Assembly (NCBI GenBank): GCA_024399015.1
Contig: JAKSIC010000003.1
Coordinates: forward strand, 1 to 64,000
Length of the DNA: 64,000 nucleotides
Direction of reading: 5' to 3'
Origin: Fibrobacter sp.
GTDB taxonomy: Bacteria > Fibrobacterota > Fibrobacteria > Fibrobacterales > Fibrobacteraceae
Shown here piece after piece: positions 45,273 to 55,342 of this stretch (the stretch's first letter is position 1; each line of letters opens with the position of its first letter). Below the pieces are notes generated by a model. That model had not been told where the DNA came from and ran no database searches. It saw nothing but the letters and a program-made list of their open reading frames with translations. The translations under genes and the position numbers were made by a program.

Positions 45273-46079
45273 ATGGGTAAGACACGTTTTATTTTGCCGA
45301 ATGCATTTACCAGCATGAATTTTTTGTTGGGTGTCTTTGCAATTTGCTGGGTGACCGGAGCTTTCAGTTCTTTCACAAGTTCTGACCCGATCCGTATGGG
45401 CGCTTACTTCATTATTCTTTGCGCACTTCTTGACAAGCTGGACGGCTTCGCTGCTCGTCTGGTTCATGCAAGCTCTGAATTTGGCGCTCAGTTCGACAGC
45501 CTCGCCGACTTGATTGCCTTCGGCGTAGCCCCCGCATTCACCGTTTTCTTTACTTATAAGACCGTTGCTCCGGAATCCTGGTTCCAGACCAACGCAGTTC
45601 TTTTGATTGTCGTATTCGCTATCTACGTGCTCTGTGCAGCAATGCGTTTGGCAAAGTATAATGCATGCGACTCCGACACCTACCACCACCATTTCTCCGG
45701 TCTTCCGTCCACCTTCGCTGGTGCAATCAACGCCGTGCTGGTGGTCTACCTCAAGTCCAAGGGTGTCTTCACTGCAGACAGCGCTTTGATCTACGTTCCG
45801 CTTTTCGTAATGCTGATCACCGGTCTCCTTATGGTGAGCCCGCTGTTCTTGCCCAAACTCCAGCCCCGCAAGAATGCAGCCTTCAATACTTTCCAGGCTG
45901 TTATGATCGTCATTACCTACATCTGCGGTTTCACATTCGTTTCCGAAGGCATTCCCTTCGTTACCGAATACATCTTGCTCCTGATGGCCAGCTACATCGT
46001 CATTGGTTTTGGCGTAGGCATCGCAAAGCGCAAGGAAATCATTGCAGAAGCAGAAGCTGAAGCAGCTCAGAAGAAATAA
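45273..46079 (+). CDS. pssA: CDP-diacylglycerol-serine O-phosphatidyltransferase
   Basis: Inner-membrane CDP-alcohol phosphatidyltransferase making phosphatidylserine, the precursor of phosphatidylethanolamine. The 268 residues hold the full motif D-x2-D-G-x2-A-R-x8-G-x3-D-x3-D (DKLDGFAARL...EFGAQFDSLAD, about 54-79) and six to eight membrane helices. The length and motif placement near the N-terminus suit PssA rather than PgsA. GGAGG precedes the ATG. Monocistronic between two terminators. A psd gene is not in view. Confidence 0.9.
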   Translation: MGKTRFILPNAFTSMNFLLGVFAICWVTGAFSSFTSSDPIRMGAYFIILCALLDKLDGFAARLVHASSEFGAQFDSLADLIAFGVAPAFTVFFTYKTVAPESWFQTNAVLLIVVFAIYVLCAAMRLAKYNACDSDTYHHHFSGLPSTFAGAINAVLVVYLKSKGVFTADSALIYVPLFVMLITGLLMVSPLFLPKLQPRKNAAFNTFQAVMIVITYICGFTFVSEGIPFVTEYILLLMASYIVIGFGVGIAKRKEIIAEAEAEAAQKK

Positions 46080-46891: not shown

Positions 46892-47575
46892 CTAGATGAA
46901 ATACGGATAGATGTAATCTTCTGCAAGACGATCCAAATTATCCAGCAAAGCGGATTTGCATGCGATATCTGTACGCTCGTAGATGCGACGAAGTTCTGTC
47001 AAGGAGAAATTCTCCAGGCGTTTTCTGGATGTTGGCAAATGAGCGATATGCCACTGTTCTGGCTGAATTTTTCCACGGCCCGGAACAAAGACTCGGCTAA
47101 AGCCAAAAGCGTCCCCAGAGTCCATTAACTGCGTCAGTTTCTGATGGAAGGGAGCGAACATACCATTACATTCCGCAGGAGTCAACTGAACTTCATAACC
47201 TTCCGGGCAAGCGTTACCATCCACCACATCCAAGTCGGAACCAAGATGATGACGGCTAGCTCCCGGAAGAGCAGACCACGTAAGAATAACATACATCAAT
47301 TTTTCTTCGTCAGCCGGGCGCTCCATAGGAACACCATTTGCATCTAGCAACTTCAATTCACCAGAAGCCTTACGATTCCAAATACTCAACTGACGTTCAA
47401 AAGGCCTATAACCCGATTCCAGGCGAAGAGCGAAGCCATCTTCGGCCAAGCGTTCTTTTAATTTGTTATAAAAAGGAAGGACTTCTTTGTCAACAAAGCA
47501 ACCATCTACATTGACAAAATCAGAAGATTCTACACTTCGAAATCCGAAGCAATCCATCATTGCATTATCGGTCAT
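46892..47575 (-). CDS. VanY-like M15 D-Ala-D-Ala carboxypeptidase
   Basis: 227 residues. M15-family zinc peptidase: S-x-H-x2-G-x3-D motif in ASRHHLGSDLDVVD and C-terminal E-x-W-H in PEQWHIAH, giving the zinc ligands and catalytic Glu. LESGYRPFERQ is the family's substrate-binding Arg region. No signal peptide is visible, so the enzyme appears cytoplasmic and may act on recycled muropeptides instead of the wall, in keeping with the MpaA-like neighbour. Its start overlaps the ruvC stop as ATGA. Confidence 0.82.
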   Translation of the reverse strand: MTDNAMMDCFGFRSVESSDFVNVDGCFVDKEVLPFYNKLKERLAEDGFALRLESGYRPFERQLSIWNRKASGELKLLDANGVPMERPADEEKLMYVILTWSALPGASRHHLGSDLDVVDGNACPEGYEVQLTPAECNGMFAPFHQKLTQLMDSGDAFGFSRVFVPGRGKIQPEQWHIAHLPTSRKRLENFSLTELRRIYERTDIACKSALLDNLDRLAEDYIYPYFI

Positions 47576-48159
47576 TGTATAGTCCCTCCCATTTTTTCAA
47601 TCAAGTCCATCCACTGCTTTGTCGTAGCCTTTTTCTTACGGGAAGCCACGCTAGACTTCTTCTTTGTTGAACCCGCCAATGCCGCCGCCATGGGGGCTGG
47701 ATTTGCATGAGTCCACGCAATGGCCAAAGCATCAGAGGCATCAAGAGGCAAGTCTCCCCTTTCAATTCCAAGACGGGCAAAAATCATATTGGCCACCAGT
47801 TCCTTAGGGGCGTTACCCGTGCCCGTTACAGCCTGTTTCACAACTGTGGGAGGATACTCATTGTAGGTCATCCCTCGGCGCCTACAAGCCACCAGCACCG
47901 CACCGCGGATATGTCCCAACACCAAGGCACTTTTAGGATTCTTGTAGAAGAATACACCTTCCATGCTGAGCGCCTCGGGGCGATACTTATCCAGCAGCTT
48001 TTCCAGTTCCGTAATGATATGCAGCAAGCGGTCTTCCAACGGCTTAGATTCTGAAGCATGAAAAACACCATACTCCAGAACTTTCGGGCAATTTTCGCCC
48101 GTATCTAAAAAAGCATACCCCGTTGTGATGGAACCAGGGTCAATTCCGAGGATAATCAT
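47572..48159 (-). CDS. ruvC: Holliday junction resolvase RuvC
   Basis: Dimeric endonuclease resolving Holliday junctions with RuvAB. The 195 residues carry the acidic catalytic residues Asp 7 (LGIDPGS), Glu 67 (SMEGVFF) and the Asp pair in LDASDALAIA. A C-terminal tail of about 40 residues, rich in Lys and Ser (STKKKSSVASRKKKATTK), is longer than usual. RuvA and RuvB are not adjacent; instead two peptidase genes follow, the first coupled by ATGA. No Shine-Dalgarno; TATTTT lies 6 nt before the ATG. Confidence 0.95.
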   Translation of the reverse strand: MIILGIDPGSITTGYAFLDTGENCPKVLEYGVFHASESKPLEDRLLHIITELEKLLDKYRPEALSMEGVFFYKNPKSALVLGHIRGAVLVACRRRGMTYNEYPPTVVKQAVTGTGNAPKELVANMIFARLGIERGDLPLDASDALAIAWTHANPAPMAAALAGSTKKKSSVASRKKKATTKQWMDLIEKMGGTIQ

Positions 48160-48212: not shown

Positions 48213-50099
48213 ATGCTTATAGATCAAGAACATGCCGGTATTATCATGCGTGCAAAGACCCACCCGCGCCAGTTGGGAATTCCTCTGAGCCGTTGGGGTC
48301 GTAACCTTATCGCTTGCTGCCCGTTCCACTCTCCTGAAGAAACGTCTCTGTTCTTCTACGATGCTTTAGGCTATTGGCGTTACCGCTGCTTGCAGTGCGG
48401 CAGCGAAGGCGACTTGGTTGAATTTGTGATGCGTAGCCGTTTCAACGGAATGGAAGAACCGGCAGCTCGCGCAGAAGCATTGGATTTCCTCGGAACTTTG
48501 GAACAGGAACACGAACCGAAACAGGATGAACATCCTTGGATCAAGGAAATCGGCGGCGAGAAATCCAAGGTCCTTGAAAACTTTGTCCGTTACTGCCATT
48601 GGGCCGCTTGCAAGAGCCCCTCTTCCGCAGAATTCCTGCAGTCCCGTGGATGGAGCATTGGTCAGGCCCAGCTCTACGGTATTGGCTACTACAGCGGCGA
48701 TCCGGAGCCGTTCGTCAGCTACTGTATGCTTTCCGGCATCGAACGCCACCAGATTAGTTTCTATCTGGACAACCTTGAAGCCTACCGTGAACCGCGTATT
48801 ACCATCCCGGCTCGTAACTCTAAGGGTTTGATTCATTCCGTATATGGTCGCGTTCTTGACGACAGCGATAGCAACCACACCTACGTTTCTTATGCCTCCG
48901 GTCCCAGCGACATTCCGTTCAATATCCAGGCTGAAAATGCAAAGCCCATTATTGTTGAAGGCTTCTTTGACGCATTGACCGCAGACCTCGCCGGCATTCC
49001 AGGCGTGGTTTCCACCATGTATCAGGAACTTTCCCTCAGCCACTTGTACAAGCTGAAGGCATGCGGTGCAGATTCCGTTACCGTGATCCTCCGTCGTGAA
49101 CAGGATCGTCGTGAACAGGAATACCGCATTCAGAAGTACCTGAAGATGGCAGAAGAATTGGATTTGAAGTTCAAATCCATCGTTCTCCCCAAGGAAGAAA
49201 CTGTTGACCTGGTGGTTCGCAAGAATGGTGCAGACCAGTTGCTGAACCTTATTCAGCAGACCGAAGAAGACACGGTTCATACCCACCGTCGTTCTATGCT
49301 TTTGCAGGACATCAAGGAAAACTTCGATATCGCCATGGGTTGCCCCCCGGACGTTCGTGTTGGTTATTCCTTGAACACTTTCCCCAAATTGACTAAGACC
49401 ATTGACGGTATCCAGTCTGGTTGTTTCTACGTGTCTTCCAAGCCCTTCGGCCTTAAGACCACATTGATGTCCAGCATGGCCTTGGATTTGCTTCAGAGCA
49501 ATCCCAAACTGAAGCTGATTTACATCGCCTTGGAAACTCCCCGCCGTCAGATTTTTGACCGCCTTGTAGCAATGCTCATTGGTGAATCCGTCCTTACCGT
49601 TCGCAAGCAGAGCGAAGACGAAGCCATGAACCAGAAGATTCTGGAAGCTACCCGCGAATTGATGGGTTTTGTCCGTAGCAACCGCCTCGAAATTTGGGAC
49701 GATCAGCCTGAATTCGACAACATGGAATTTATCGCCACCCTCAAGGAAGAAGCCAAGGAACATCCGAACCTGGTTGTATTCATTGACGGTATCGATCACC
49801 TGAAGATTACCGACTACTTCGACTTGACCGACATTCACGAACGTCGTTCTTCCGTGATTCTTGACCTGTACAAGGCTTTGGACATTCCTCTGTTCATTGG
49901 TGGCGAGCTGGTAGATTCTGAACACGGTCTCGTAGGCCCCCGCGCCTACCTCCGCGATTCTGACGCCATCTACTGGTTGGAATCCAAGGGCGGCAATTTG
50001 TTCTTGACCGTCAATTCCAAGCGACTGGGAAGCAGCCAAGTGTACCAAGGCAACTTGGCCATTGACCCGCTTTCCAACAAAATGCAGGAAGAAGCCTAA
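48213..50099 (+). CDS. DnaG-DnaB-like primase-helicase fusion with lost catalytic residues
   Basis: 628 residues. Order of parts: CHC2 zinc finger (Cys 36, His 39, Cys 59, Cys 62), DnaG-like core (RITIPARNSKG, 195-205), TOPRIM strand with Glu 249 (IIVEGFFDAL), then a RecA-fold DnaB-like domain (about 370-625) with catalytic-type Glu 441 (YIALET) and Walker B FIDG (Asp 525). The TOPRIM DxD of DnaG (YDGDRAG) reads LRREQDR (293-299), and the P-loop reads SKPFGLKTT (409-417), missing two glycines. The architecture recalls phage T7 gp4/Twinkle, but primase activity is unlikely. AAAGGA precedes the ATG. Followed by GT4 and Dabb genes; no phage genes near. Confidence 0.75.
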   Translation: MLIDQEHAGIIMRAKTHPRQLGIPLSRWGRNLIACCPFHSPEETSLFFYDALGYWRYRCLQCGSEGDLVEFVMRSRFNGMEEPAARAEALDFLGTLEQEHEPKQDEHPWIKEIGGEKSKVLENFVRYCHWAACKSPSSAEFLQSRGWSIGQAQLYGIGYYSGDPEPFVSYCMLSGIERHQISFYLDNLEAYREPRITIPARNSKGLIHSVYGRVLDDSDSNHTYVSYASGPSDIPFNIQAENAKPIIVEGFFDALTADLAGIPGVVSTMYQELSLSHLYKLKACGADSVTVILRREQDRREQEYRIQKYLKMAEELDLKFKSIVLPKEETVDLVVRKNGADQLLNLIQQTEEDTVHTHRRSMLLQDIKENFDIAMGCPPDVRVGYSLNTFPKLTKTIDGIQSGCFYVSSKPFGLKTTLMSSMALDLLQSNPKLKLIYIALETPRRQIFDRLVAMLIGESVLTVRKQSEDEAMNQKILEATRELMGFVRSNRLEIWDDQPEFDNMEFIATLKEEAKEHPNLVVFIDGIDHLKITDYFDLTDIHERRSSVILDLYKALDIPLFIGGELVDSEHGLVGPRAYLRDSDAIYWLESKGGNLFLTVNSKRLGSSQVYQGNLAIDPLSNKMQEEA

Positions 50100-50122: not shown

Positions 50123-51310
50123 ATGTTCACCATCGTTGATTTCAATAATTTCTGGAGCCCGTCAGGAGGCGGTGTTCGCCGTTACCATCTGCAAAAAATG
50201 GCTTTCTACGAACAGCAAAGCGAAGTCCTTTCCGTTTTCGTTATGCCAGACTCCAAGACTTTTACAGAAAAGAAAAGCGATGGTCTGATCATTGAACATG
50301 TGGACGCCTATCGTTTTCCCGGCAACTGGGAATACCGTTTTATTTGGAAGCAATCCCAAATCCGCCCTATTTTAAAAAAATACATGCCGGACGTGATTGA
50401 AGTGGGATCACCCTACATTCTACCGTCTGTTGTCCGTTGCGCGGCAAAGAAAATTTGTCCCAACGCAGCGCTCCTAAGTTTTTGGCACGCAGACTTCCCC
50501 ATTACCTATGTGGAGCGCCCTGTCACAAACAAACTAGGATCAACCCTCGGCGCCCTTTGCAGAAAAATTGCATTCTGGTACGCTCGCCAAGAATTCAGGA
50601 ACTACGATGGAGTTCAGGTTTCCTGCAAGGAAGTTTTGGACCGTTGCGATGCAAATGGTTTACCTAAATCCCATTGGATTCCGCTAGGCTGTGACATCCA
50701 GATGTTTTCTCCGGATAAGCGGGATGAAGAACTAGTAAAAAAATTGAAGGATGGCGACCCAGAACGTTTGACCATTTTCTTTCCCCATCGCTTCTGCGAA
50801 GAAAAGGGTATCGAGCTTCTGCTTGGTGCATACGACATTCTTTCCGCCAAGTTGAACAGCGAACCCGCCCTCGTTTTGGCTGGCACAGGTCCGTACCTTC
50901 CCCAAGTTCAAGACGCCGTAAAAAAACATCCGCGCATACAGTACGCAGGATTTATCAAGTCCATTGATGAAATGGCAAGGCATTACGCAAGTGTCGATTT
51001 GGGTCTCGCCCTTTCTGGTTGGGAAACCTTCGGCCTTTCCATCTTGGAAAGTATGGCTTGCGGGAACGCGCAAATCGGAGCATACACAGGCGCAGCCGCA
51101 GAACACGTCAAAGAATCCAATGCAGGCGTAACTCTTGAAACGCGTTCCCCAGAAGCCTTGGCCAACGCAATTGTAGAACTTTATCACTCTGACTTAACGC
51201 AAAAGAAAAAGAACGCACGTCTCTATGCTGAAAAATTTAGCTGGAACGATTGCTTTAAGCGTCAGTTGGAACTTTACAAAAACATCTCCAATCAAAAGAG
51301 GAAATCATGA
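50123..51310 (+). CDS. GT4-family glycosyltransferase
   Basis: 395 residues, GT-B fold. Gly-rich N-terminal loop SPSGGGVRRY (12-21), nucleotide-sugar binding half with FFPHRFCEEKG and VLAGTGPY, and the E-x7-E motif in ETFGLSILESMACG (about 300-313). Retaining transferase of unknown sugar, likely in cell-surface or lipid glycan synthesis. It follows the primase-helicase-like gene by 23 bp and overlaps the Dabb gene by ATGA, so the three are probably one operon although their functions look unrelated. Confidence 0.88.
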   Translation: MFTIVDFNNFWSPSGGGVRRYHLQKMAFYEQQSEVLSVFVMPDSKTFTEKKSDGLIIEHVDAYRFPGNWEYRFIWKQSQIRPILKKYMPDVIEVGSPYILPSVVRCAAKKICPNAALLSFWHADFPITYVERPVTNKLGSTLGALCRKIAFWYARQEFRNYDGVQVSCKEVLDRCDANGLPKSHWIPLGCDIQMFSPDKRDEELVKKLKDGDPERLTIFFPHRFCEEKGIELLLGAYDILSAKLNSEPALVLAGTGPYLPQVQDAVKKHPRIQYAGFIKSIDEMARHYASVDLGLALSGWETFGLSILESMACGNAQIGAYTGAAAEHVKESNAGVTLETRSPEALANAIVELYHSDLTQKKKNARLYAEKFSWNDCFKRQLELYKNISNQKRKS

Positions 51311-51624
51311 TCAGACACATTGTTTGGTGGAAATTAAAGGCTGAAGCAGAAGGTGCTACCGCCAAGGAAAACGGTGAAAAGTTGGTTGCTGCATTCCATG
51401 CATTGGAAGGCAAGATTCCTGGCCTGGTCAGCATCGAATCCGGTTTAAACTTCAACAAGTCCGAACTGGGCAACGGTGATATCGAATACGATATCGCCCT
51501 GGACACCACCTTCCGCACCAAGGAAGCATTGGACTTTTACCAGGGTCATCCGGATCACCAGGCTATCGTAGGCTTCGTGAAGAAGGTTGTGGTGGAACGT
51601 CGCGCCGTAGATTTCGAATACTAA
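51307..51624 (+). CDS. Dabb (stress-response A/B barrel) domain protein
   Basis: 105 residues forming one alpha/beta-barrel domain: MIRHIVWWKLK at the start, IPGLVSIESGLNF, then DIEYDIALDTTFRTKEALDFYQGHPDHQAIVGFVK (about 58-92; key residues F-Y-H-P-H). Dabb domains occur in stress-induced proteins and some small lyases and form dimers. Substrate unknown. Last gene of its operon, before a terminator. Confidence 0.88.
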   Translation: MIRHIVWWKLKAEAEGATAKENGEKLVAAFHALEGKIPGLVSIESGLNFNKSELGNGDIEYDIALDTTFRTKEALDFYQGHPDHQAIVGFVKKVVVERRAVDFEY

Positions 51625-51735: not shown

Positions 51736-54318
51736 TTACTTTTTCTTCAACCATGTACTGCAAAGGAACATGGAGAAGATAACGCTCGCCACCAAGAACA
51801 CAGAAATACCGATACAAGCCAAGTCACCGATTCCCTTCAAGCCTCGATGACTGGTAAAAAGGAAGCCAACAAAGCCAGCCACAGTGGTCAAGGAACTAGC
51901 AATCACATTTCGTCCGGTTGTATCCATCAACTGGCGCAAAGTCAAATTGTTGTTGGTAGACCAGGAAGTAATGAAATGAATGGTGGCATCAATGCCGATA
52001 CCAAGCGTCATGGGAATGACAATCACGTTATAGATACTGATTTTACCGAATTCAAAGAAATGAGTCAGGAATCCCAATAGGCCAAGAGTCAGTAAGGTTC
52101 CCATGCCAAAGGCAATGCAACCACTAATGAACAGCTTGGGCCTACGGAAGGAAATTGCCAATGTTGCAAAAATCACGAGGATAATCGCCAACGCCAACCT
52201 AAAGCTATCCTGCTTTACAGATTCAATCACGTCGGAAAGAATAAACTGAGAAGAGAATGTGCGGAGTTTTTCGCCATCGAAATTCCAGTGGCCATAACGT
52301 TCCTGGAAGTCGTGTAGAGCATTGGCATCCCAGCTGGGGAAGTTACCATAAATAAAGCCAATCTTACCGTAGGATCCATCCTTTTCACGGAGAATATCCA
52401 ATGTCCAACTGGGAATATCTTCAGCGGTAAAAGGTTCTTCTACGGCGGCCATTTGACGAAGGTTCGCAATGTTTGCTGAATCATCGCCTTCAGCGCGATC
52501 AAAGACTCTTGCCTCCACCAAGTCTCGAATTTCTTCAATGACTTCAAGACGGATTTTCTGGGAATCCATAGGAGGAACAAAACTTCTCAACGTAAGGAAA
52601 CTGCCTAATGCGGGATCCTTTTCATCTCGCAGACGGACCATCAAGGTATCATACAGCTTGTCCATCTGTTCCGGCTTTGAGCCCATTACTGCAGCGGGAT
52701 TGGAAGACTTTGCCTTGTTGCCATCTCTCGTGACGCCAGTAGCAATTTTGTTCTTCTGAGTTTTTACAACAGTAGAGACTCGACGAAGATTTTTCAAGTT
52801 ATGTTCAAAGTCAACGTTCGGTGCATAATAAACAGCAGCAAGACCAAGCACCAAGCCAACAAGTGCAGTAACCTTAAAGAATTTTCCGATTTTTTCTTCG
52901 CTCCAGGACTTCGGGAAAAGACTATTCTGAGGAGCCGCAGGTATACCGCCCATACACTTGATCAATACCGGCAAGAACAGCACGGACGTCATCATGCTGA
53001 ACAACACACCCACGGAAGCCACTACACCAAATTCATAGAAGCCCTTGAAATGAGCAGCCAGTAAAGTGAGGAAAGCGGCAATAGTAGTAAAGCTAGCCAA
53101 GATAAACGGCTTAAGCATTTTCTTCTGAGCTTCTTCCAGGACTTCTTCCAGGGAAGAGAACTTGTTCAACATCTTTTGTGCGGTACCCAAAATATGAATG
53201 GAATAGTCGATACCGATACCCAGAATAATGGACGCCACAAAGACTGTGAAGGGGCTCAACTTACCGTAGAAAATCGCAGTAAAGGCAAAGGTGGGAACGC
53301 AAGCGTAAAGAACAGAGCATGTTACAAGAATGGGACCCTTCACACTGCGGAAGAAGAAAGTCGTCAAAAGGAAAATCAATACAAGACTGATGCCGAAAGA
53401 GAATATACTGTCGTTCGCAACTTCATCCACTTCCTTCAAACCTTCATAGGTTCCTTCTACGCTAAAACGAGTCTTTGCAGGATAGGTGCGTTCACCAAAA
53501 TGTTTCAACAGTACATCTGTCTGTGCCAAAATTCTAGAAACAAATTCATAGTCGGTAGACGGCTTAATGAGCTTAGCATTAACAACCCCGTTAAACCAAA
53601 CCTTGCCAGTGCTATCAGGACGCGGGCAACCAATCAAACGTGTTCTCAAATGAGAAGGAACAGGAGCCTTCGGGTCCCATTCATCGGCAGCCTTATCTGT
53701 CTTAACCGTGTCCTTGGTCTTTTTCAAGAAGGACGTAAAGGCGCCAACAGCTTCATCGGGCAAGCCCAATTCCTGAGGAAGATTGGAGTCAAACCAAACC
53801 CTTTCCTTCTTTTCTTCAGCAGCAGATTCATCACCCAAAAGGTCAACAACCAGGGGACCATTCTTTCGGCCAATTTCCAACTGGAGATCTTCAAGGTTGT
53901 CACGGATACGTTCCAGATGAGTTACCGGAAGATAAAGCAGTGCATTATCCTTGAAGAACTGGTTGTTGTTATCAATCTGGAGGGAAACAAAATCATCCTT
54001 CCAGTTTTGACGAATGTACTCGCTAATAGAGTCCTGCATTGCTGCAACAATTTCAGGATCTTCACTTTGTATTGCGATGGTAAAGCGGTCTGCACTACCA
54101 AAACGAGTGTAGGATTCCTGAAGCGCAATCACACTAGGCGTGTCTTCCGGAAGCAAATGGGACAAGTCCGCATCAAGTTTCAAACCCGGTTTCACCAAAA
54201 TCGGATAAGCGCAAAGCAAGGCAAGAATCAAATAGAAAGCCAAAGCTTTAAACGGGTGCTTACAAATCAGTGGAATATACCACTTAGAAAATCTTTCTTG
54301 AAGAGATGGCTTAGACAT
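51736..54318 (-). CDS. MMPL/RND-superfamily exporter
   Basis: 860 residues. Twelve membrane helices in two symmetric halves, each with a large periplasmic loop and an MMPL motif: ILGIGIDYSIHILG in the first half and MTLGIGIDATIHFITSW in the second, with the conserved Asp that couples proton flow. It resembles HpnN-like lipid/hopanoid transporters, so lipid or glycolipid export is a fair guess beside the glycan cluster. The ATG at 54318 is preferred to a start 138 bp upstream, because the latter would read through the promoter. TATATT lies 6 nt before it. Confidence 0.88.
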   Translation of the reverse strand: MSKPSLQERFSKWYIPLICKHPFKALAFYLILALLCAYPILVKPGLKLDADLSHLLPEDTPSVIALQESYTRFGSADRFTIAIQSEDPEIVAAMQDSISEYIRQNWKDDFVSLQIDNNNQFFKDNALLYLPVTHLERIRDNLEDLQLEIGRKNGPLVVDLLGDESAAEEKKERVWFDSNLPQELGLPDEAVGAFTSFLKKTKDTVKTDKAADEWDPKAPVPSHLRTRLIGCPRPDSTGKVWFNGVVNAKLIKPSTDYEFVSRILAQTDVLLKHFGERTYPAKTRFSVEGTYEGLKEVDEVANDSIFSFGISLVLIFLLTTFFFRSVKGPILVTCSVLYACVPTFAFTAIFYGKLSPFTVFVASIILGIGIDYSIHILGTAQKMLNKFSSLEEVLEEAQKKMLKPFILASFTTIAAFLTLLAAHFKGFYEFGVVASVGVLFSMMTSVLFLPVLIKCMGGIPAAPQNSLFPKSWSEEKIGKFFKVTALVGLVLGLAAVYYAPNVDFEHNLKNLRRVSTVVKTQKNKIATGVTRDGNKAKSSNPAAVMGSKPEQMDKLYDTLMVRLRDEKDPALGSFLTLRSFVPPMDSQKIRLEVIEEIRDLVEARVFDRAEGDDSANIANLRQMAAVEEPFTAEDIPSWTLDILREKDGSYGKIGFIYGNFPSWDANALHDFQERYGHWNFDGEKLRTFSSQFILSDVIESVKQDSFRLALAIILVIFATLAISFRRPKLFISGCIAFGMGTLLTLGLLGFLTHFFEFGKISIYNVIVIPMTLGIGIDATIHFITSWSTNNNLTLRQLMDTTGRNVIASSLTTVAGFVGFLFTSHRGLKGIGDLACIGISVFLVASVIFSMFLCSTWLKKK

Positions 54319-54330
54319 GCCCCAAATATA
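54319..54330 (-). promoter_or_regulatory. Putative leaderless -10 element of the MMPL gene
   Basis: TATATT (54325-54330, minus) plus TGGGGC, then ATG. The 12 bases are almost identical to those before the surface operon at 13222 (TATATT-TGGGGT). The rest of the divergent region to 54412 holds ACTATA-TTTATTG-TATAGT (54371-54389), an inverted repeat containing the likely -10 box of the GT8 gene. Confidence 0.5.
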
Positions 54331-54412
54331 CAAATTGTTAAATTTGAGAAATATTCCAATTCTGGAAAAAACTATATTTATTGTATAGTTAGCATACATA
54401 CAGAAGGTACAA

Positions 54413-55342
54413 ATGGAACCGACAAAAATCCCAGTAGCACTTGCTAGTGACGGCAACCAGATTCACGCCATGGCCACGGTGATTACATCCGCAATCATCA
54501 ATGCACACGACGGCACCTTCTACGATTTTTACTGCCTTATTTCCAGCGACGTTTCTGAAGATCAGCGCGCCAGGCTGAAGGCTTGCGAAGCAATTCGACA
54601 CAACTGCGTCATCAATCTCGTCGAGATGGATGAATACTTCAAGAACATCGAGTACAGCCACAATAACTTTACTCATTCTATCACAACGGCAACCTTGTTC
54701 CGTTTGAAGATTCCTTCTGTTCTCACCCAGATTGACAAGCTTTTGTACATCGACACCGACATCATTGTCCGCGACGATCTTTCTGACTTGTACAACTTCG
54801 ACATGGGTGACTCCTACTTGGCCGGCGTTCCCGCCGTATGGGCACACGCCAACCGTAAGGATCGCGAAAAATGGCTGAACAGAACAGGCATTCCTGAAAT
54901 GGATTACTACGTCAATGCCGGCGTATTGATCATGAACCTCAAGGAAATGCGCGCTAACGATATTGAAAAGAAGTGCTTTGACCTTATCGGCTACGAAAAG
55001 TTCAAGGGGCTCGATGGCGACCAGCTGATTCTCAACTACACCTGCTACGGCCGCATTACATTCCTGCCCTGCAAATACAATGTTACCGCAAGCAACATGA
55101 AGCATTTTGAAAGCATGCGCGTTGTGTTCTCCGGCAAGGAAATCAGCGAAGCCATCAACAATCCCACCATTTTGCATTGGACTGGTGCAGGAAAGCCCTG
55201 GAAGTACTACGATGTCCTTCTGGCTCACGAATGGTGGCGCTACTACAAGGCCTCCCCTTACAAGGACGTTCCTCTGCACAGAGAATCCAACCACGACAAT
55301 TTCAAGAAGTTCCGCAGCATCGTGAAGAAGTTCTTCCACTAA
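54413..55342 (+). CDS. GT8-family glycosyltransferase
   Basis: 309 residues, GT-A fold, retaining. DxD metal site in YIDTDIIV (about 116-123), DQLILN (about 204-209) and the C-terminal HWTGAGKPW (about 262-270), all typical of LgtC/GspA-type galactosyl- or glucosyltransferases acting on LPS or surface glycans. AAGG precedes the ATG. First gene of a GT8-Stealth-flippase operon. Confidence 0.9.
   Translation: MEPTKIPVALASDGNQIHAMATVITSAIINAHDGTFYDFYCLISSDVSEDQRARLKACEAIRHNCVINLVEMDEYFKNIEYSHNNFTHSITTATLFRLKIPSVLTQIDKLLYIDTDIIVRDDLSDLYNFDMGDSYLAGVPAVWAHANRKDREKWLNRTGIPEMDYYVNAGVLIMNLKEMRANDIEKKCFDLIGYEKFKGLDGDQLILNYTCYGRITFLPCKYNVTASNMKHFESMRVVFSGKEISEAINNPTILHWTGAGKPWKYYDVLLAHEWWRYYKASPYKDVPLHRESNHDNFKKFRSIVKKFFH

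Follow-up and report, generated by a model that had tools for sequence, protein, structure and literature searches.

T7 gp4 carries a zinc ribbon, a polymerase/TOPRIM part, a linker and a RecA-like part in that order, with working TOPRIM acidic residues and a working P-loop. Metazoan Twinkle has the same layout and has kept its primase domain, the activity of which was lost by substitution; it is an active helicase and the replicative motor of mitochondria, and the N-terminal domain of the human protein, no longer a primase, still binds DNA and stabilizes the oligomer (PMC9860392). TOPRIM proteins can also be used for RNA binding and not only for priming, as in archaeal DnaG, an RNA-binding cap subunit of the exosome in which other domains flank the TOPRIM (PMC4227792). 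The Fibrobacteraceae family described here shares the layout of the first two, and the literature searched held no description or function of it; we refer to its members as pseudo-primase-helicases.

The gene lies at positions 48213..50099 (+) of the window, the 64,000-nucleotide stretch of Fibrobacter sp. DNA that was analysed, and has orthologues in relatives. As an earlier note on this DNA had stated, the 628-residue frame is intact and has, by sequence, a good ribosome-binding site (AAGGA, ~8 nt 5′ of the ATG). That note also proposed a DnaG-DnaB-like fusion, which homology searches and the predicted fold support. The NCBIfam dnaG model TIGR01391 matches residues 23-357 at 89.7 bits (E 1.8e-25), far under its equivalog cut-off of 283.6 bits; with Pfam, the CHC2 zinc ribbon scores above cut-off, DnaB_C (PF03796) reaches 23.9 bits, slightly under its cut-off of 27, and the DnaB N-terminal domain has no match, its place being occupied by the primase-like domain. 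A profile of the Fibrobacteraceae family, by sequence alone, finds the A. aeolicus primase 2au3 (1e-11) and several DnaB structures (4e-6), and S. aureus DnaG as well. A monomeric AlphaFold2 model, with 47 family sequences as input, has a mean pLDDT of 75.5 and a pTM of 0.52, the RecA part being mostly at pLDDT 85-95 and the zinc ribbon at low confidence (mostly <60). Foldseek against the PDB returns T7 gp4 (5ikn, 1q57) and human Twinkle (7t8b) as the top full-length matches of this model (525-630 columns, E about 1e-13 to 1e-14), and the viral primase-helicases match its fold across the entire length, although sequence identity to gp4 is ~15%. The model overlays the primase-helicase fold, and thus shows the TOPRIM and RecA similarity whose absence the earlier note had named as grounds for abandoning its reading. 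Given the TIGR01391, CHC2, DnaB_C, profile and fold matches, the homology to DnaG and DnaB is not chance, and because Pfam, NCBIfam, the family profile and Foldseek agree, we take the layout to be that of gp4 and Twinkle.

Within the single chain, a CHC2 zinc ribbon (residues 18-75; 48264..48437, +), found by Pfam, is followed by the N-terminal part of a DnaG-type RNA polymerase domain (residues 116-244; 48558..48944, +), aligned with the genome's own DnaG, and by a degenerate TOPRIM domain (residues 245-350; 48945..49262, +) found by Pfam, profile and the same DnaG alignment. A helical linker (residues 351-384; 49263..49364, +; helix 355-376 in the AlphaFold2 model) joins these primase-like parts to a DnaB-type RecA domain (residues 385-626; 49365..50090, +), placed by Pfam, profile, AlphaFold2 and Foldseek. 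The zinc ligands Cys36, His39, Cys59 and Cys62 are the Cys-His-Cys-Cys set of bacterial DnaG and are kept in 87 of 87 distinct family sequences, in which Pro199, Arg201, Asn202, Lys204 and Gly205 of the polymerase domain are also invariant.

Three alignments were used for the TOPRIM sites (to the genome's own DnaG by hhalign, to 2au3 by HMMER, and the family alignment), and they place the catalytic Glu at 249 (48957..48959, +) and the DxD at 294-296, which reads RRE within LRREQDR (293-299; 49089..49109, +), just as had been aligned from the window alone. No DxD occurs at this site in any of the 87 distinct sequences, which span 33-100% identity; the former metal site instead holds a conserved basic motif, with Arg294 in 82/87, Arg or Lys295 in 87/87, Glu or Asp296 in 79/87 and Arg299 in 85/87. 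The second acidic motif, which aligns with LPKEETVDLVVRKNG (325-339; 49185..49229, +) against the genome's own DnaG, had been described as altered too; this is so for the first Asp of the pair at 330-332 (TVD), now Thr330, but the second is kept as Asp or Glu332 in all 87. Glu249 had been counted among the readable residues together with the zinc ligands, position 441 and Asp525, and while the latter are kept in 87, 86 and 87 of 87 sequences, respectively, Glu249 differs in 15 (Gln in 11, Ser in 2 and Pro in 2). When the protein is aligned with the genome's own DnaG, the lysines of the DnaG segments AKYxNSPE and HKxD are seen not to be retained, and part of the groove usual in DnaG has accordingly changed; by net charge, no domain of the protein is basic. 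Unlike DnaG, the protein also has no helicase-binding C-terminal domain.

Alignment with the genome's own DnaB places Walker A at SKPFGLKTT (409-417; 49437..49463, +), the catalytic Glu at 441 (49533..49535, +) and the Walker B Asp at 525 (49785..49787, +). The RecA core, including Asp525, Glu441 and the LRDSDA segment, resembles that of the DnaB C-terminal domain, but the Walker A glycine preceding Lys415 is replaced, by Leu in this protein and by Leu, Phe, Asp, Tyr or His across the 87 sequences; Gly at 414 is found in none of them, nor is GxxxxGK[ST] anywhere in their length. Lys415 and Thr/Ser416 are each retained in 86/87, position 441 is Glu in 78, Asp in 8 and Lys in 1, Asp525 is present in 87/87, and Lys603/Arg604 in about 90%. 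With its lysine so widely kept, this is a P-loop without its glycine rather than one without its lysine, and the retained K415, T/S416, D525 and E441 may allow ATP binding, even slow hydrolysis. The earlier description of these residues as lost thus holds for the DxD and the Walker A glycine, replaced in 87/87, but not for the Lys, Thr/Ser, Walker B Asp and Glu of the RecA site, and as judged from the alignments the catalytic sites have been remodelled and not erased. Only the first linker is less conserved than the RecA part, which has an entropy of 1.01, versus 0.37 for the zinc ribbon. In one relative (L038 in genome G145; L038:4036-5910:-), both Lys415 and Glu441 are gone (QPMSLSSIF, INLKKPRR) from an intact protein, by its sequence a further erosion of the ATP site.

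The protein thus has the single-chain layout of gp4 and Twinkle without a functional Walker A GxxxxGK[ST], the CHC2 ligands of DnaG without its TOPRIM Glu and DxD or a score above the TIGR01391 cut-off, and, of DnaB, neither a PF03796 match above cut-off, nor an active P-loop, nor the N-terminal domain. Going by these sequence features, it is a lineage-specific double pseudoenzyme, lacking the catalytic features that define gp4, DnaG and DnaB. It differs from gp4 in having both sites replaced and in being encoded by a chromosomal core gene, and from Twinkle in that its P-loop is altered as well and a normal DnaB coexists with it.

Full-length orthologues (33-100% identity) occur in 97 of the 111 Fibrobacteraceae genomes and in 9 of the 11 genera of the family, including 80/80 genomes of the genus, even those 62-70% complete; named matches are to Fibrobacter and relatives, including F. 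intestinalis. Among the 111 genomes, the gene is absent from genera g2 and g4 and from one 71%-complete genome. Our searches, which covered other families of the phylum, found no full-length homologue outside Fibrobacteraceae, and inheritance is apparently vertical. A reading as a phage gene was rejected, as IMG/VR viral contigs contain no relative and phage records give no full-length match, only ordinary primases at 20-28% identity over <=60% of the length, in agreement with the non-phage setting noted before.

Pairwise dN/dS values of 0.03-0.07 show that purifying selection is strong, and the zinc ribbon is the most constrained part (dN/dS <=0.012 in within-genus pairs); one F. intestinalis-group pair has a higher dN in the zinc ribbon, with dS saturated. 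Recent decay, which intact DxD or GxxxxGK motifs in close relatives would have indicated, is rejected on the grounds of a very low dN/dS and of a loss common to every relative among the 87 sequences; the family alignment shows the loss of the DxD and the Walker A glycine to be old, ancestral and family-wide. The combination of low dN/dS and sites replaced in 87/87 also supports the earlier suggestion of selection for a non-enzymatic role. Codon use had been called normal, but it is more than that: the codon adaptation index (CAI; reference, ribosomal genes at 0.735) is 0.664, compared with 0.640 for dnaB, 0.512 for dnaG, 0.443 for the downstream GT4 glycosyltransferase gene and 0.373 for ruvC in the same genome. 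Across loci it exceeds that of ruvC in 86/86 and that of GT4 in 83/90, with weights that are only approximate outside the species; a value well above that of the genome's own dnaG suggests, from codon use, an abundant protein.

Normal dnaG and dnaB genes, for which the earlier note advised a search, are both present and intact elsewhere in the genome (DnaG motifs EGYFD, VFDGDAAG and DPDNF; DnaB Walker A ARPGVGKTS), and so is the loader DciA, which is found in 106/111 family genomes, with and without the pseudo-primase-helicase. Priming, unwinding and helicase loading thus do not require the latter gene; a replacement of DciA was rejected, and the loader role put forward earlier is unnecessary. 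A role in anti-phage defence, also put forward, is unlikely for a single-copy core gene that is universal in the genus and has no defence context; it was rejected in view of a distribution that is neither patchy nor mobile and of PADLOC matches (RT_UG29 and RTasDnaG-like only) that are weak and reach no known family beyond the zinc ribbon.

Directly downstream lies a GT4 glycosyltransferase gene (50123..51310, +; NCBIfam), which starts <=80 bp 3′ of the pseudo-primase-helicase in 91/91 loci checked, even where all other neighbours differ; the closest NCBIfam model for it, N-acetylglucosaminyl phosphatidylglycerol synthase, scores 184 bits against a cut-off of 480. A Dabb-domain gene (51307..51624, +; Pfam) overlaps the GT4 stop and is found in only some loci, so of the operon described earlier the GT4 member is constant and the Dabb member is not. 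Divergent ruvC (47572..48159, -) is the upstream neighbour in most loci, although not in the two most diverged. The GT4 pairing is constant where the pseudo-primase-helicase exists and not obligatory for GT4: the gene preceding GT4 in genera g4 and g2 encodes RNase HI, and the GT4 orthologue of G153, a genome from another family, has other neighbours, so the pairing is weakened as proof of function. A nucleic-acid protein precedes GT4 in both the g4/g2 and the pseudo-primase-helicase arrangement. Replacement of RNase HI by the pseudo-primase-helicase was rejected because the tested carriers have RNase HI elsewhere, making the gene upstream of GT4 interchangeable. We note that the RNase HI before GT4 in g4 and g2 (L144, L145, L147 and L149) carries an N-terminal viroplasmin-like part. 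A pssA-like CDP-alcohol phosphatidyltransferase gene (window 45273-46079) is still close to GT4 in L032 and L033, the loci that have diverged most, which suggests a phospholipid/glycolipid gene cluster; pssA is also nearby in G044 and G146. No Rfam family matches the locus, and no candidate sigma-70-like promoter or terminator exceeded what chance would give. Thus, the fusion, the non-enzymatic selection, the intact dnaG and dnaB and the non-phage setting proposed in the earlier note are supported, whereas its loader and defence roles are not.

With both catalytic centres replaced, the protein now probably holds or senses nucleic acid. We put at roughly one half the probability that it is an exapted gp4/Twinkle-like pseudo-primase-helicase serving as a non-catalytic nucleic-acid-binding scaffold. 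A gp4/Twinkle-type primase-helicase would have been acquired or assembled beside a lipid-type GT4 gene in the Fibrobacteraceae ancestor, would have been stripped of both chemistries before the divergence of the living genera, and would have persisted in the core genome in a new, non-catalytic function. Its zinc ribbon and polymerase domain would still bind nucleic acid, most likely single-stranded DNA, a basic LRRExxRR motif would replace the TOPRIM metal site, and the RecA part may be a scaffold for oligomerization or nucleotide binding that does not hydrolyse ATP productively, such that the protein would hold single-stranded DNA at forks or repair intermediates, neither priming nor unwinding. 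The invariant zinc ligands and Arg201/Asn202/Lys204 are consistent with this scaffold, as, by analogy, is the dead primase domain of Twinkle (PMC9860392); against it, the invariable GT4 neighbour may point to a different context, the protein has no net basic domain and has not kept the DnaG groove lysines, the model of the zinc ribbon is of low confidence, and the retained K415, T/S416, D525 and E441 could support ATP binding or even slow hydrolysis. More tentatively, the double pseudoenzyme may be an abundant and essential nucleic-acid-organizing or replication-regulating protein specific to Fibrobacteraceae, with LRRExxRR in place of the TOPRIM metal site, which, if true, would add a new functional class to the gp4/Twinkle fold.

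The near-universal Lys415, Thr/Ser416, Asp525 and Glu/Asp441, the frequent Lys603/Arg604 and the confidently modelled RecA part would also suit a RecA domain that binds nucleotide, in a protein acting on the replisome or nucleoid as a regulator or NTP-gated switch, perhaps through an association with DnaB or DnaG; we consider this unlikely, as the glycine before the P-loop Lys is replaced in 87/87, normally incompatible with phosphate binding, the RecA part is comparatively poorly conserved, and L038 has neither Lys415 nor Glu441. Rather less probable is a protein that became RNA-binding by analogy with DnaG of the archaeal exosome: the non-catalytic TOPRIM and predicted high expression fit, but the conserved neighbourhood has no RNA-processing gene. 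The N-terminal domain of archaeal DnaG is of another kind, and the protein has neither a CHC2 ribbon nor a RecA part, a textbook difference in architecture (PMC4227792) that also speaks against the analogy. The invariable GT4 and the nearby pssA, including in G044 and G146, could instead mean that the protein works in envelope glycolipid synthesis, for instance by regulating GT4 or serving as its scaffold, an idea to which we give little credence since GT4 orthologues occur without it in g4, g2 and G153, codon adaptation differs strongly (0.664 versus 0.443), and the gene upstream of GT4 is interchangeable, carriers having RNase HI elsewhere. Finally, Glu/Asp296, Asp/Glu332, Lys415 and Asp525 put acidic or basic residues at expected places, as in a still active enzyme with substituted catalytic residues, but with Arg at the first DxD position, a variable Glu249 and no P-loop glycine in any member, such activity is hardly credible. 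The family shows that selection can maintain a primase-helicase architecture for a purpose beyond its chemistry, probably binding or scaffolding. It is a clear-cut natural example of a replication enzyme fold kept under strong constraint after both catalytic sites were lost, with normal enzymes coexisting, and it can serve as a test bed for what dead primase domains do, a question posed by metazoan Twinkle. The gene is part of the lineage-specific core genome of bacteria that are major cellulose degraders in the rumen.

As to origin, BLAST scores of 57-90 bits for Fibrobacterota DnaGs and 56-71 bits for phage primases slightly favour a bacterial DnaG source and are not decisive. On the GT4 tree, the presence and absence of the pseudo-primase-helicase needs two changes, and fits, not firmly, a gain at the base of the family followed by loss in g4 and g2. 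Beyond the Dabb gene, the window encodes a 906-residue RND transporter (51736-54456) resembling the hopanoid transporter HpnN, under the equivalog cut-off. Although the pseudo-primase-helicase gene is a single-copy core gene, one 81%-complete genome of the genus (G075) holds two full-length copies on separate contigs (L011 on G075:C11, and G075:C15:2543-4417), with 88% and 78% identity to that of the window, and is probably a mixed assembly.
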